Of a stretch of DNA of 64,000 nucleotides, positions 19,533 to 26,034 are shown one piece after another. The notes under the pieces are model-generated. The model made no database searches and was not told the origin of the DNA. It worked only from the letters and a program-made list of their open reading frames with translations. Position 1 is the first letter of the stretch. The number at the start of each line of letters is the position of its first letter. Origin of the DNA: Frederiksenia canicola (lineage in GTDB: Bacteria > Pseudomonadota > Gammaproteobacteria > Enterobacterales > Pasteurellaceae); the NCBI RefSeq assembly GCF_011455495.1, contig NZ_CP015029.1, forward strand, positions 1,860,740-1,924,739, written 5' to 3'. The translations under genes and the position numbers were made by a program.

Positions 19533-20453
19533 TTACTCGACTTGAAATAAAAACGGATTGATCCCGCTTCTCGCCAAGCCTTTTTGTTCCATTTCAGCAT
19601 CTAAGAACAATGAACCAAGATCGTCTGCAACGGCTTCAACGTGCGGATCTTTTTCTTGATACATTACTTTTAAATAGCTTTCGCAGTCGCCACAGCTTTC
19701 GGCTTTCACTGCAGCCTCGGCACTGTCTAAACTCCAATATTCCAACTTGCCCGTTTGTTCACAGTTGGAACATTTCGCTCGCACCACGTTCCACTCGCTT
19801 TCGCAGAGAGAGCAATGCAAATAGCGTAGCCCTTGACTATCACCAAAATGGACGACGCTCGCCACAGGGGCAGAATCGCACACAGGGCAAGTATGGCGAT
19901 GCTCACCGTATTCTGTTTGGCTGTTGCGTGGCAACTGTTGAGCAAGCTGCACCCAATAAAGCGATAACACCGCCCATAAAAATACCGCCTTATCAGCACC
20001 AACCTCTTCAAAACGCTCGTTTAACAAGGCATCAGCCAGCTGCTCAAGTTCAGAATTGGAAGCTTTCTCGAGCCATTCCAATGTGGCTTGCACCTCACCC
20101 GCAACACGTGGCTTACATTTCTCGACAAAAGCGAATAGAAGCACTCTCCACTCTGGTGAACGTATAAATTGTTTAGCACTCAGTGGTTTTTGGTTTGGGT
20201 TGTTGGTAATACAAACGGTCAGATCCTCGGAAATATTTGCAATTGGCTGACTTTCTAACAGTTCCAACTGAATATCCACCAATTGTGCCGCAAAATCTAA
20301 ATAATCACCAAAGGGATTATTCTCCGCTAATTGGCGTAGCCGCTTAGCACGGCGTTGATAAAGATTTTTGGGGTTAGCAAAAAGGAGCGGTGGATGTTGG
20401 AATGAACTCGCTGCTTGTTTGATTTCGTTATCGGGTAGAATTCGGATACTCAT
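19533..20453 (-). CDS. fdhE: Formate dehydrogenase accessory protein FdhE
   Basis: FdhE is a cytoplasmic chaperone needed for maturation of respiratory formate dehydrogenases. In E. coli it binds the catalytic subunit. The 306-residue protein carries four CxxC rubredoxin-like pairs in its C-terminal half: CPVC, CSLC, CSNC and CGDC. The start at 20453 has no clear ribosome-binding site. In H. influenzae, as I recall it, fdhE directly follows fdxI; here a restriction-modification pair lies between them. A terminator-like hairpin (20505-20528) stands just upstream of fdhE, so it probably needs its own promoter. Confidence 0.92.
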
Positions 20454-20504
20454 AATACTTTGCTATCAAGTTGTTAGATAGCGTATTATTACATAAATGT
20501 GAAC

Positions 20505-20528
20505 AAAAGGGAGCTCTCAATCCCTTTT
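20505..20528. terminator. Terminator after the restriction-modification operon
   Basis: AAAAGGGA (20505-20512) pairs with TCCCTTTT (20521-20528) across GCTCTCAA. T-runs are present in both orientations. It separates the specificity gene from fdhE. Confidence 0.6.
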
Positions 20529-20537
20529 ATTGTGCGA

Positions 20538-20609
20538 CTAACGTAGTTTACTCAACTCACTCACCCTTTCGACAACATCATAAGCTAAATCGGGTTGTTG
20601 TTCGGTTAG
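20538..20609 (-). pseudogene. Out-of-frame coding-like tail after the specificity gene
   Basis: Beside the stop of the specificity gene, another minus-strand frame reads LTEQQPDLAYDVVERV, then seven more residues, then TAG. The amphipathic, charge-rich composition looks protein-coding, and there is no start codon. It may be the former C-terminus of the specificity protein, cut off by a small frameshift, or the remnant of another gene. Inference only. Confidence 0.4.
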
Positions 20610-22270
20610 TATTTGGCATCAAAATAAGCCAACAACCTCATCACTTGGGTAAGTTCCTTTTGCATCATCATTTTTTCAATGAATTCAAAATGGATTTCAC
20701 CTTGTGGAGTAGTCGGAAGCAAGATTTTTTGTTTTTTCAGCCGCTCTGTTCCCATTTTATAACCGTAACCATATTTTTCTTTTTGTTTCAAAATACACGC
20801 AGTTATAAATAAGGATACGTATTTATTTGTATATTTAGGTCTGAGTTTTCTTGTGTCATTCCCATATAAGGCTGCATATGGGTGATAGAATGCATAACCA
20901 ACAGAACCGTTACGATTAACTGAAATACAACCTTTTTCAATTGTGGTATTGATATTTTTAACAAAATAACCAATACCGTTATTATTTGCTGTAGCCGTAA
21001 TATAAGGTGTATTTCCTGCTACACGCTCTCGCTCGTAAATATCCTGCCCCGAATTTATTTCACAAACATCACTAATTTTAAACGGTTTCCAAGTTACACT
21101 ATCTACCGTTCGTTCGTTCGTTCGTTCGTTCGTTCGTTCGTTCGTTCGTTCGTTCGTTCGTTCGTTCGTTCGTTCGTTCGTTCGTTCGTTCGTTCGTTCG
21201 TTCGTTCGTTCGTCAAAAATTGTCGGCTTGCCGTAATAGGACAGCAAGGCTTTTACTTTATCCTGCTCGATTTTTCGCATAAAGGCTTCCATAAATGCCC
21301 AATCGGGATTGCCGTTTTGGTCGATTGGAAGCATTATTTTTTCACGCTTAATTCGCTTGTCATTGATTTCACGGTTAAATGAATACTTGTCTTCCAACCG
21401 TTTGATGATGCTGGATAAAAATAAATAAACGTATTTGTTCTTATTTTTCAATTGCAAACTAGTAACGTGATCACTGGCAACAAATTCATAATGATGAAAG
21501 AATGTTGAACCGACACTACCGCTATTTGCCAAGGTAAGGCAATTTTCAAATTTTCTCACACCGTCTGAATTATCTATAAAATTATCTACACCATTATTCA
21601 CAGCAGTGGATGATACATAAGGGATAGAGCCGTCAATTTGTTTGTTCTTAGTTAAACGCTTTCCTCGTTGCACTTTGTGAAAAATATCGGAAAAATTAAA
21701 TGCTTTCCACGCACGATCTTTCAATTCACCACTGGCAATCATCAATTCAAGGGCTTGATTACTTAGCATATCTGTAATCTCCCTGAGTTTTGACAGCTCT
21801 TTTTGCTTGATAAAGTCTTCCATAAAAGCCCAATCTGGCTGACTGGCAAGATTGTCGCCCATATGTCGAACTATTGGCAACATTATTTTTTGTTCTTTTA
21901 TTCTTTCTGTAAAAGCCTTTCTGCCAAAAGCATATTTATCTTTATTTGATACAATTAAGGTTGTTATAAATTTAGCATTGTATTTTGTAAGTAATGAATT
22001 TCCTAAAATAGTCATCTCATCACTAGCCGTGAAAATTCCTTCCGCATAGAATGCATCGCAAAAAGTTGATACTACAATTTTATTTTGATCTAAAAATAAG
22101 GGATTACTAATCAACTGAGTCATACCATTATTAGAATTACTTGCTGAATAGTAAGGAATTTTTCCTATCTGACGATCTTTTTCAATTAATCTCTTACCCC
22201 TAGAAACAGAAAAAATTTCTCCAATTTTAAACGCCCGCCATTCTCTATCCGTCAATTTCAATTCATGCAT
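20606..22270 (-). CDS. Specificity subunit of a BcgI-like restriction-modification system, three recognition modules, phase-variable
   Basis: The 554-residue protein has three similar modules of about 155 residues, starting at W11, W188 and W394. Each opens with W-(R/K)-A/P-F-(K/N), then has a segment like RGKRL and IPY-(S/I)-(S/T), an NNG, and ends with K-I-(M/L)-LP and a helical tail; modules 1 and 2 also share PDWAFME. Each should be a target-recognition domain plus coiled coil. Known partners of this type (BcgI B, 341 residues) have two. Residues 354-388 are a repeated ERTN tetrapeptide encoded by a 4-base repeat between modules 2 and 3. The start at 22270 has GGAG upstream and overlaps the A-subunit gene by 8 bases. 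The sequence contains no uptake word. Confidence 0.85.
   Translation of the reverse strand: MHELKLTDREWRAFKIGEIFSVSRGKRLIEKDRQIGKIPYYSASNSNNGMTQLISNPLFLDQNKIVVSTFCDAFYAEGIFTASDEMTILGNSLLTKYNAKFITTLIVSNKDKYAFGRKAFTERIKEQKIMLPIVRHMGDNLASQPDWAFMEDFIKQKELSKLREITDMLSNQALELMIASGELKDRAWKAFNFSDIFHKVQRGKRLTKNKQIDGSIPYVSSTAVNNGVDNFIDNSDGVRKFENCLTLANSGSVGSTFFHHYEFVASDHVTSLQLKNKNKYVYLFLSSIIKRLEDKYSFNREINDKRIKREKIMLPIDQNGNPDWAFMEAFMRKIEQDKVKALLSYYGKPTIFDERTNERTNERTNERTNERTNERTNERTNERTNERTVDSVTWKPFKISDVCEINSGQDIYERERVAGNTPYITATANNNGIGYFVKNINTTIEKGCISVNRNGSVGYAFYHPYAALYGNDTRKLRPKYTNKYVSLFITACILKQKEKYGYGYKMGTERLKKQKILLPTTPQGEIHFEFIEKMMMQKELTQVMRLLAYFDAKY
21107..21213. repeat. Tetranucleotide repeat tract inside the specificity gene
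   Basis: The plus strand reads CGTT in perfect tandem for 26 full copies plus three bases (coding strand CGAA). It encodes ERTN repeats. Since 4 is not a multiple of 3, gain or loss of one copy shifts the frame. Just after the tract the coding strand reads CGGTAGATAG, which stops both wrong frames at once. This has the form of a phase-variation tract driven by slipped-strand mispairing. Confidence 0.95.
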
Positions 22271-24182
22271 TATTTTCTCCTTGTTCCAATCCGAACAAAT
22301 AGCCTCGCCCGTGGGTAATCATATTGACTTCAAAGGTAAGATAGTCAGCAATGGTTTTCTCAAAATCCGCTTCGGTGGGGATTTCATCGTTGAAATAGTA
22401 AAAGGAATGCAGCCATTCGTCTTCTGCTTCAATGGTTGTGGTAACGCAAAATTTGGTTTCGGCTTCTATGCGGTCGAACCATACGTCGAGCAAATGGTTT
22501 TTCTTGTCTTTTGCCGATTCGGTTTCCACCAAACCGCGATGTTTTTGTACTTCGAAACCGTCATTTTCAAAATTGATGAATTTGACCGATTTGTCTTTAT
22601 CGTGCGGTACGCCTGCGGTAAATACGGCAATGCATGGGTTTGTGCCAACCCCGTAGAAGGTATTTTTGTTCAGGGTAATCACGCCTTCGAGCGTATGGCA
22701 TTTTAAGATGTTGTTTTTGATTGCCTGTTCTTCTTTGGTTTTACCCGTCATCGACGATTGCGGCACAATCACGATGACTTTGCCGTCTTCGGAAATAGAA
22801 TCCAGCAAATGTTCGGTAAAGGCGATTTCATACAAATTCGGATTGGCTTTCGAACCTTGCGAATAGGGCGGATTCATCATGCCCACGCTAAATCCCTTTT
22901 TCTGCCATTGCGCCGGATTTTGTTTTAAGAAATCCTCCTGCTCCAAATTGCTTTTGCCGTCGCCGCGCAAAATCATATTGGTGGTCGCGATAGTAAACAT
23001 ATAGGGTTGCAGTTCGATGCCGTGTAACTGATGCTTGCGGATATTGCGTTTTTGGTTTTCGCTATCGGCTTGTTTTAGCATATGGTGCATGGCGGCAATC
23101 AAAAATCCTGCCGTGCCGCAACACGGATCGAACACGCTGTCGTCAGGTGACAAATCGACCAAATCACAAAATAATTCCACAATATGTTTGGGTGTTAAAA
23201 CGATACCGAGCGTTTGCCCGTCGCCGCCCGAATAAGACATAAATTCACCGTAGAACCGCCCCAAATAATCCTCTGCGGATTGGGTATATTTGATGTTTTT
23301 GTAAATGTGTTCGTATAAAAATTCAGTGTAATGCTTAATCGGCGTTTTACCCAAATTGTTATTGACTTCATTAATGGCTTTAGTGTCTTTAATTACCAAA
23401 AACTGACTGAGCAACTTATCTTTTTTGACTTGCGGGGAGACTTTAGCTCGATCGAGATTGTCTTTAATTGCCGTATAAATCTTTTCACCGTCCGTTTTAA
23501 CTTCATCACCGGTCAAACTGTCAATGGAGAAATTTTTATACTCCATTTCGCGCAGGGCAAGTAAGATTCCTGATACGATCAGGGGTTTGTCTTTATCTTG
23601 AATACTGCCGTAATTACGCAAATCTTCGTGCAACGCCTTAGCATCACTTAAAATTTCAGCAGTCGTTTTTTCTTCGGGAGTCTCTTCTTTAAGAATATTT
23701 TTAATATAGTATTCATCAATATTCTTTGATGTGAATAAGGTGAATGTTTCCACGTCGTCAAGCTGCTTGTAATTGCCACGCTCATCCACAAAGAGCGGGG
23801 TGATTTTATGGCGTTTTTCGTCACCGGATACGCCAATGGCAATGATTTTCTTGTAGTTTGTATGCTTTGCCAAATGTAGACCGTAATGCAATGCGCCATT
23901 TACGGCAAAATCCTGCACACTGCCGACATCATCACAAATCAGTCCTTTATCGTTTAATTTTAAATGATTTGCGGTATCGGCTTTATCCTCCACCACAATC
24001 AAAAAATCTTTCACTAGACCACAGTATTCAGGGCGACCAACTTTACCTGTTTTAGATTTAGACGCCGTTTTTAAGGCATTGTCAATTTCAACAATATCGC
24101 TGCCTTGTGTGGATAATTTCAACCCTGCGATTTTGAGTAAATCATAGACCCACAGGTCGGTTTGAGTTTCGTTTTTAGCCAT
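22263..24182 (-). CDS. BcgI-like A subunit: fused endonuclease and N6-adenine methyltransferase
   Basis: The 639-residue protein is close to BcgI A (637) in length and layout. The N-terminus carries a PD-(D/E)xK-like nuclease motif: P51-E52 and E65-D66-K67 in FLIVVEDKAD. A helical middle part follows. The N6-adenine methyltransferase has motif I DPCCGTAGF (352-360) and catalytic NPPY (437-440). One polypeptide thus both cuts and methylates, as in type IIB systems, and needs the specificity subunit encoded just downstream. No separate HsdR gene is present, which argues against an ordinary type I system. The ribosome-binding site before 24182 is weak (TGAGAAA). Confidence 0.85.
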   Translation of the reverse strand: MAKNETQTDLWVYDLLKIAGLKLSTQGSDIVEIDNALKTASKSKTGKVGRPEYCGLVKDFLIVVEDKADTANHLKLNDKGLICDDVGSVQDFAVNGALHYGLHLAKHTNYKKIIAIGVSGDEKRHKITPLFVDERGNYKQLDDVETFTLFTSKNIDEYYIKNILKEETPEEKTTAEILSDAKALHEDLRNYGSIQDKDKPLIVSGILLALREMEYKNFSIDSLTGDEVKTDGEKIYTAIKDNLDRAKVSPQVKKDKLLSQFLVIKDTKAINEVNNNLGKTPIKHYTEFLYEHIYKNIKYTQSAEDYLGRFYGEFMSYSGGDGQTLGIVLTPKHIVELFCDLVDLSPDDSVFDPCCGTAGFLIAAMHHMLKQADSENQKRNIRKHQLHGIELQPYMFTIATTNMILRGDGKSNLEQEDFLKQNPAQWQKKGFSVGMMNPPYSQGSKANPNLYEIAFTEHLLDSISEDGKVIVIVPQSSMTGKTKEEQAIKNNILKCHTLEGVITLNKNTFYGVGTNPCIAVFTAGVPHDKDKSVKFINFENDGFEVQKHRGLVETESAKDKKNHLLDVWFDRIEAETKFCVTTTIEAEDEWLHSFYYFNDEIPTEADFEKTIADYLTFEVNMITHGRGYLFGLEQGENNA

Positions 24183-24230
24183 CGTGTGTTTCTCATTAGA
24201 GCTTGAATTTTTAGAATAAAAAAGTTTTGG

Positions 24231-24236
24231 ATTATA
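24231..24236 (-). promoter_or_regulatory. Probable -10 box for the restriction-modification operon
   Basis: TATAAT on the minus strand lies about 50 bases before the A-subunit start. The -35 region (CAGCTT at 17 bases) is poor. The spacer 24183-24416 holds no gene and is AT-rich. Confidence 0.4.
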
Positions 24237-24414
24237 ACCAAAACAGCGACAAAAAGCTGATAAACAAGAATAAAATCCCAGAAGAAGCCGAACATCTCAC
24301 AATGCTTAGTGAAATCATTTTGAGACTCTGATTTTGTATAATTGTTATGTAACATCATAATACTAATATTATGCAAAAAATCGTGAAAATCCGACCGCTT
24401 GCAAGAAAAAGTAG

Positions 24415-24450
24415 AAAACAAAAGGGGCGAAAATTTCGCCCCTTTTGTTT
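24415..24450. terminator. Strong terminator after fdxI
   Basis: A long stem, ACAAAAGGGGCGAAA against TTTCGCCCCTTTTGT, is flanked by A- and T-runs. It ends the fdxGHI operon and isolates it from the restriction-modification genes that follow on the same strand. Confidence 0.9.
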
Positions 24451-24458
24451 ATGTGTCA

Positions 24459-25136
24459 TTACACTTTATTTTGCTTTTCAGCTAGCTCTTTTTCAAGTTC
24501 AGGCAATACTTCTTCACGATACCAGCGAGGGTGGTGTTTTTTCGCCCAACGGACAGTTACCCAACCTTCAACCATACCGCGGATTGAACCTTTCACCCAA
24601 AATGCCATGTAGATGTGCACCATAATCCCAGTAAAGAGCAAAAATGCACAGGCAGAATGGAATAAGATTGCAATACGAATGACTGGAATTGAGAAATTAT
24701 GAGCGAAATATTGACGCCACATAATGATCCCTGTAATCAATAAGGTGAACATGGCTAAAATCAATGTCCAGAACAGCATTTTCTGACCAAGGTTATATTT
24801 GCCATTGTCAGAAACCGCATGTTCATTGCCTTTTAACACCTCATGAATGTTTTTCAACCATACCCAGTCGTTTTTCTCTGGGAAGTTATGACGCCAATAG
24901 ATGCGAACCAAATTCAAGAACGCAACAAACATCACAATACCAGTGAATGGGTGAACTAGCCGAGCTAATTGTGGTGTGCCAAGAACTTGCACTAACCATG
25001 AGAAATCAGGGAAGAAAAATGCCAACCCTGAAAGCCCTGTGATAAAGAAACAAAGCACCAATGTCCAATGGCTTAGACGTGCTGGTAATTTGTGGCGAAC
25101 AATGCGTTGATCGTCGCTGATCTTGATATTACTCAT
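24459..25136 (-). CDS. fdxI: Formate dehydrogenase-N cytochrome b subunit
   Basis: This gamma subunit anchors the periplasmic enzyme in the inner membrane and passes electrons from the iron-sulfur subunit through two b hemes to menaquinone. The 225-residue product has about four membrane segments with histidines placed as in FdnI (for example [12 protein letters not shown] and HSACAFLLF). I chose the ATG at 25136 ([10 protein letters not shown]). It overlaps the fdxH stop by 8 bases, a coupling arrangement, and the upstream extension lies inside fdxH and is not family-like. A strong terminator follows. Confidence 0.93.
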
Positions 25137-26034
25137 TGTTGCCCCCTTTGTGTTCTTCTTCATGATGGTCATCTAGCTCTTCCGTATTCGGACCAAAAGT
25201 AATGTAGTGAGCTGCCGCACTTAATGCCAAGCCTCCCATTGCCACCGCAGCTACTGGTTTGAGCACATCTTTCCAAAGCGTAATGGTTGGATCAATTTTC
25301 GGATCTTTCGGTAAGCCTGAGTAGAGTTCAGGTTTATCTGCGTGGTGCAATACATACATCACGTGTGTACCACCAACACCTTGTGGATCATACAAGCCCG
25401 CATTTTCGTAGCCACGAGATTTGAGATCTTCAATGCGTTTTTCGGCATAGACTTTCATTTCTTCTTTGCTACCAAAGCGAATTGCTCCTGTTGGACAAGT
25501 TTTCACGCACGCAGGTTCTTGCCCTACATTAACACGGTCAGAACAGAGCGTACATTTATAAGCACGATGATCTTCTTCGTTAATGCGTGGAATGTTGAAT
25601 GGACAACCTGCAATACAGTAACCACAACCGATACATTTATCGGATTGGAAATCCACAATACCGTTAGCATACTGAATAATCGCACCTGGAGCAGGACACG
25701 ACTTCAAGCAGCCAGGTTCCGCACAGTGCATACAGCCATCTTTACGGATCAGCCATTCTAAGCGGTCGTTTTCTTCCACTTCGTTGAACTTCATCACCGT
25801 CCACGCTTTTGCGTTAAGATCGATTGGATTATCATACACGCCCACACAAGCTTCAGGCTCTGCACGAATATCATTCCATTCAGAACAGCCCACCTGACAG
25901 GCTTTACAACCGATACAGGTGGTTACATCGATCAATTTCGCCACTTCAACTTGATGATCTCTCGCATGTGGCGGTGGTGTTAGCCCCGACGTTGCAGAGG
26001 CTTTAATGATATTTTGAGATTGAACTACACCCAT
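25129..26034 (-). CDS. fdxH: Formate dehydrogenase-N iron-sulfur subunit
   Basis: The beta subunit carries four [4Fe-4S] clusters that wire FdxG to FdxI. In its 301 residues four cysteine clusters are visible: [35 protein letters not shown] and CTLCSDR...CVKTC. A single C-terminal membrane helix ([19 protein letters not shown]) anchors it with most of the protein outside. Its ATG stands one base after the fdxG stop codon, and its end overlaps fdxI, so fdxGHI are translationally linked. Confidence 0.96.

Follow-up and report, generated by a model that had tools for sequence, protein, structure and literature searches.

A BcgI-like restriction-modification operon of Frederiksenia canicola with a candidate slippage switch between two- and three-module forms of its specificity subunit

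Analysis of a 64,000-nucleotide stretch of Frederiksenia canicola DNA (contig NZ_CP015029.1, positions 1,860,740 to 1,924,739; hereafter the window) pointed to a BcgI-like (Type IIB) restriction-modification operon with a putatively phase-variable specificity gene. Both genes lie on the minus strand. The A gene (22263–24182) encodes a 639-aa protein recognised with PADLOC and Pfam as a BcgI A-like fusion of a PD-(D/E)xK-type nuclease and an N6-adenine methyltransferase. It aligned to positions 1–631 of the 637-position PADLOC model REase_MTase_IIG (PDLC03602; E=1.7e-169) and matched Pfam N6_Mtase at E=2e-38. The residues P51-E52 and E65-D66-K67 (P-E-x12-E-D-K) and the motif N437-P-P-Y440 were retained, of which E52, E65, K67 and NPPY were invariant across an 89-row alignment of A subunits. 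The B (specificity) gene (20606–22270), which shares 8 bp with the end of A, encodes 554 aa in the present frame and contained three Pfam Methylase_S stretches (E=2.8e-57), with a match to PADLOC Specificity_II (PDLC03591) at E=6.9e-85. A search of solved structures with the B sequence gave no match. The fused A subunit and the separate, adjacent subunit with Methylase_S modules are those of a BcgI-like system; the departure from it lies in the number of target recognition domain (TRD) modules in B, which is three in the present frame and two, as in BcgI, in the other frames.

Module calls with an HMM, combined for the first two modules with AF2 models, divided B into module 1 (21737–22270, minus strand; TRD1 and the conserved helix CR1, helix residues 147–179), module 2 (21227–21736, minus strand; TRD2 and CR2, helix residues 324–346) and module 3 (20609–21112, minus strand; TRD3 and CR3, helix residues 528–553), the last being the candidate switched module. 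Between modules 2 and 3, TRF found a single perfect CGTT array at 21107–21213 (107 bp, 26.75 copies, 100% match, score 214) and no second long array in the 64-kb window. On the coding (minus) strand, within the 554-aa open reading frame, the array reads (ACGA)26.75 and encodes (NERT)n at residues ~353–388; it is therefore a long, in-frame simple repeat with a unit that is not a multiple of three, as expected of a phase-variable locus. The coding bases directly 3' of the tract, GTAGATAG, contain one TAG for each wrong frame, both within 8 bases (21103–21105 and 21099–21101, minus strand), while the correct frame continues into module 3. About 352 residues lie upstream of the tract, and the predicted short form of B would end at about residue 388–390. 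These results bear out what an earlier note on this DNA had read from the letters, namely some 26.75 copies of a 4-base repeat in frame between modules 2 and 3, a TAG in each of the two wrong frames right after it, and a frameshifted protein that ends at about residue 390 with modules 1 and 2 complete and a size near that of BcgI B.

Predicted structures were consistent with this division. The two-module form was modelled by AF2 with a mean pLDDT of 87.6 and a pTM of 0.65; its best match in the PDB was the HsdS structure 1ydx (E=3e-17, TM 0.56/0.54), and it also matched the S subunit of the Type IIB enzyme BsaXI (8w0p, E=1e-7). On these models, modules 1 and 2 by themselves make up a complete S architecture. 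For the three-module form, AF2 predicted every TRD with confidence, but residues 342–388 (the tract region) had a pLDDT below 50, and the packing between modules was unreliable (pTM 0.45). Module 3 is thus predicted to hang on a flexible, disordered tether.

The single modules had relatives in several taxa. Module 2 was 67.7% identical to module 2 of Avibacterium and module 3 was 54.7% identical to that of the related genome G108. One B gene of Moraxella matched window modules 2 and 3 with its two modules, at 69% and 74%, respectively, which indicates that this pair occurs as a unit, and window module 3 was 64% identical to the module that comes first in a B gene of Bacteroides. Judged by these likenesses, module 3 is probably a working TRD type and modules 2 and 3 form a plausible pair.

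The A/B pair interrupts a formate dehydrogenase cluster (19533–25172); it lies between fdoI and fdhE, in the same orientation, and fills a gap of about 4 kb. The same site is empty elsewhere, at 155 bp in the congener G047 and at 102–106 bp in genomes G026, G105, G108 and G110, from which we conclude that the operon entered at this site. In G026, G102 and G108 the related operons sit at other genomic places, and the operon looks horizontally acquired. Searches of plasmids and phages returned more distant relatives only, none of them near the window's system.

For comparison, the best 80 of 203 matches for one A family were taken, chosen by A-subunit similarity alone; about 90 loci were covered overall, and their modules were called with an HMM built on the same loci. 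In G108, whose A subunit was 90–94% identical to that of the window, (ACGA)13 occupies the module 2–3 junction and (GCCA)33 lies near the end of module 1 (locus L036, 3632–3763, minus strand). At the equivalent site the window carries a degenerate GCCA run, GCCAGTCAGCCAG (21835–21847, minus strand), which may be read as a stage in the birth or decay of a tract. Avibacterium paragallinarum NCTC11296 (G026; 81%) has a G10 tract at the module 2–3 junction and was assembled in the two-module state, with a B of 377 aa. Additionally, G13 was found between two modules in G102, G11 in Neisseria dentiae, and (AGCCG)4 and (AGCCG)16 in Moraxella. Among the best 80 of 203 matches, Streptococcus, Peptoniphilaceae, Gemella and an Acholeplasmataceae MAG carried (AT)n at the module 2–3 junction. 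Many Bacteroidales had poly-G at the module 1–2 junction together with poly-G or poly-C at the module 2–3 junction, and Flavobacterium-type genes had two modules without a tract.

Each of the 35 B genes with three modules had a simple repeat at the module 2–3 junction; about 33 of these genes are distinct, as two near-identical pairs were counted twice. The repeat units, ACGA, AGCCG, AT, poly-G and poly-C, are mutually unrelated, and some tracts were short, such as (AT)5, G7 and C7. On the A tree the set of repeat labels required at least 23 changes, and the window's clade of seven (SH-aLRT 87, below the starred level) held ACGA, AGCCG and poly-G; units have therefore been replaced at an unchanged position. 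Five consecutive ACGA units occurred at one site only in the window's genome and in three of 140 genomes of the family, the three sites being the window's B gene, the homologous gene of G108 and a different place in A. paragallinarum. The last is a further tract of about 22 units (G026, C2:254996–255083; locus L143) near the end of a UvrB-looking gene, and no open reading frame of at least 80 aa spanned it in the 3-kb locus.

Placement of the tracts by chance was ruled out by the repeat counts: the 5,691 nt of junction sequence contained 53 repeats, compared with 7 in the 86,652 nt within modules and 1 in the 152,019 nt of A genes. The density at junctions was about 115-fold that inside modules (binomial p=2e-56, with related loci treated as independent). 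The median distance from the tract to a wrong-frame stop was 9 nt at the module 2–3 junction and 21 nt in module interiors, and both wrong frames were stopped within 30 nt in 82% and 39% of cases, respectively. A decaying third module was likewise ruled out, since in none of the 35 genes did a stop interrupt the third module before its natural end. Of these modules 22 were out of frame and 13 in frame; the in-frame share (37%) is close to the one third (33%) that random slippage predicts. The idea that third modules are one special phylogenetic class was unsupported: they mostly neighboured other post-tract modules, and module types also shift from one position or phylum to another.

Differences in tract length were found in homologous genes, the window's species being represented by one genome. 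Two IMG/VR contigs (L134 and L140) differed over 2 kb by two substitutions and by (AT)16.5 vs. (AT)12.5, i.e., 4 AT units. The loci of Bacteroides mediterraneensis (L080) and Mediterranea massiliensis (L081) differed over 2 kb by only one G in the module 2–3 tract, a change that takes module 3 out of frame; homopolymer sequencing error could explain this one-base case but not the eight-base AT difference. The near-identity of the latter operons in two Bacteroidaceae genera also indicates recent transfer of the whole system. The claim of the earlier note that the tract is phase-variable was strongly supported by this comparison, through unrelated junction repeats, length differences, intact out-of-frame modules and the two-module state of A. 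paragallinarum. Given the repeats in 35 of 35 junctions, their density there, the intact third modules and the near-identical pairs with tracts of different length, we regard the tract as very probably a contingency locus under selection, and slippage would be expected in F. canicola itself.

The best explanation of the locus, to which we give a probability of roughly 0.7, is a slippage switch between two- and three-module B that changes the sites methylated and cut. Slippage in the ACGA tract would shift the frame downstream of module 2. One third of tract lengths (107 bp ± multiples of 12) would yield the 554-aa, three-module B, and the other two thirds a B of ~390 aa with complete modules 1 and 2 and the ordinary size and layout of a BcgI-type B. 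In the two-module B, TRD1 would pair with TRD2, and this form would bind two A subunits and act at a bipartite site. In the three-module B, TRD3 on its (NERT)n tether could pair with TRD2 or TRD1 and so add or substitute a second bipartite site, and in-frame slips (3 units) would change the length of the tether only. Module position, predicted folds and characterised relatives suggest that the two-module form is active and that, as the earlier note proposed, the switch alters specificity rather than merely turning the system on and off. Position carries most of this argument, since an ON/OFF switch needs no particular place and the tracts sit where complete modules remain. The recurrence of junction repeats across phyla suggests that such a switch is a selected way to change the site that is marked and cut. 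A caution is that a fused nuclease-methyltransferase with a shifting specificity is at risk of cleaving the unmethylated chromosome of its own cell; methylation by BcgI-type enzymes has been reported to prefer hemimethylated sites (PMC6789123, PMC4027205).

A sub-case of this switch is that the three-module form keeps the TRD1 + TRD2 pair and simultaneously adds TRD2 + TRD3 or TRD1 + TRD3, so that two specificities coexist. We regard this only as a tentative reading, at somewhat worse than even odds. It has a precedent in JHP1422, a natural three-TRD HsdS that methylates two sites at once, although this is an analogue from Type I only; it is also consistent with the resemblance of modules 2 and 3 to the module pair of one B gene of Moraxella and with the predicted flexibility of the tether. 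Extended over several phyla, the reading becomes one of BcgI-like systems in which junction repeats let each gene give one, two or three modules at random, with simultaneous action of the three-module form at two bipartite sites; we consider this just short of an even bet. If it is true, three states of the protein are expected from those Bacteroidales genes that carry a tract at each junction, and the enzyme must somehow survive new unmethylated sites in its own chromosome.

Alternatively, only one form might be active, either because three modules are needed or because module 3 poisons the enzyme, and slippage would then turn the system on and off with no change of specificity. This is the usual result of tracts in phase-variable methyltransferase genes and it avoids self-cutting by a new specificity. 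We nevertheless consider it unlikely, because the tract lies at the junction in every three-module gene and almost never within modules, whereas an OFF switch need not spare complete modules; modules 1 and 2 alone are predicted to be a complete S architecture; third modules stay intact across phyla, even out of frame; and the related HpyUM032XIII has two active forms with different sites. It is far less probable that the tract mainly tunes the tether between modules 2 and 3 (4 aa per 3 units), with frameshifts as by-products. Spacer length does depend on the number of central repeats in EcoR124I and also, through LEAT repeats, in NgoAV, but units of 1, 2, 4 and 5 bp all break the frame where tuning should favour units of 3, 6 or 12 bp, disorder is predicted for the linker, and 22 of 35 relatives are out of frame. 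A decaying or chance feature, such as a gene fusion or an assembly oddity with an incidental repeat, is barely credible against junction repeats in 35 of 35 genes, intact modules and catalytic residues kept in 89 A subunits, even though the A gene of G108 is frameshifted and an A/B operon that moves between genomes may decay.

The slippage switch between two- and three-module B belongs to a known class. Its nearest known system is HpyUM032XIII, a BcgI-like Type IIG/IIB enzyme of Helicobacter pylori UM032 that recognises CYAN7TRG in its short form and CYAN7TTC in its fused form (Lee et al. 2015, PMC4450513). Both systems combine a fused restriction-modification subunit (A) with a separate S subunit (B) and a slippage tract between S modules. 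In HpyUM032XIII, however, a poly-G tract (12) lies between half-S genes and takes one module to two, whereas the window has a tetranucleotide tract that would take two to three, and its short form, unlike that of HpyUM032XIII, already has a heterodimeric TRD pair. JHP1422, the S subunit of the Type I system Hpy99XV, shares with the window three TRDs in one S polypeptide and has two recognition sites (Krebes et al. 2014, PMC3936762). It differs in being a Type I HsdS with identical TRD2 and TRD3, described as the product of a duplication; a junction tract is not described for it, and its alleles differ by recombination (PMC3936762). Slippage in the poly-G tract of NgoAV HsdS of Neisseria gonorrhoeae truncates S after a complete module, and specificity is changed, not abolished (PMC6789123), but this is again a Type I system, and the change is between one and two modules. 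BcgI and BsaXI are Type IIB (RM)2S enzymes with a B of the form TRD-CR-TRD-CR (PMC4027205, PMC9159934, PMC11997821); TRD1-CR1 of BsaXI alone cleaves ACN5GT, and truncation after a module is thus tolerated (PMC9159934). These enzymes share the subunit plan of the window but have two modules only, and phase variation is not described in those papers. Finally, a frameshift tract between the recognition parts of the H. pylori Type IIG enzyme JHP1272/HP1353-1354 alters its specificity (PMC3936762); this is, unlike the window's system, a single-chain MmeI-like enzyme with a C-tract and an extra C-terminal TRD.

Neither a slippage switch from two to three modules nor a cross-phylum junction rule was found in the full-text literature searched (subscription papers, preprints and REBASE notes apart); within that literature, the tetranucleotide two-to-three-module form and the breadth of the pattern appear to be new. 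If the interpretation is correct, slippage-driven switching of specificity in BcgI-like systems would be a repeatedly evolved design and not a Helicobacter curiosity, and the design would span Pasteurellaceae, Neisseria, Moraxella, Streptococcus, anaerobic Firmicutes and Bacteroidales. A single gene would then alter methylation pattern and phage restriction in a random and heritable way, which poses the question of how a single-polypeptide nuclease-methyltransferase changes its target without killing the cell. As three-module S subunits are, in this sample, common and always accompanied by a repeat at the module 2–3 junction, the role of the third TRD could be tested with many natural pairs.

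Several minor observations concern the relatives. The A subunit of G108 is frameshifted near residue 372 (locus L007, around 1417–1564), and this copy is probably inactive or misassembled; the frameshift indicates that the system can be lost. More distant Pasteurellaceae BcgI-like A genes carry 8-bp or 5-bp repeats, either upstream of A or close to its 5' end (L041 2708–2779, L043 8096–8327, L053 1–56, L039 6722–6741 and L040 2567–2586), probably classic ON/OFF tracts. The possibility that module 3 is translated separately, with a start of its own, was rejected for the window, as there is no start codon 3' of the tract. In the Streptococcus loci L088 (ATGATTAA), L095 (ATGCTTGA) and L101 (ATGCTTAA), an ATG in the frame of module 3 lies just after (AT)n and either overlaps or directly adjoins the stop of one truncated frame, and termination-reinitiation could there yield a free-standing module 3 protein; ATGs just 3' of the tract are present in L099 and L100 as well. 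L088 (5600–6616) and other Streptococcus loci additionally contain a gene of ~338 aa between A and B, which may be RhuM-like.
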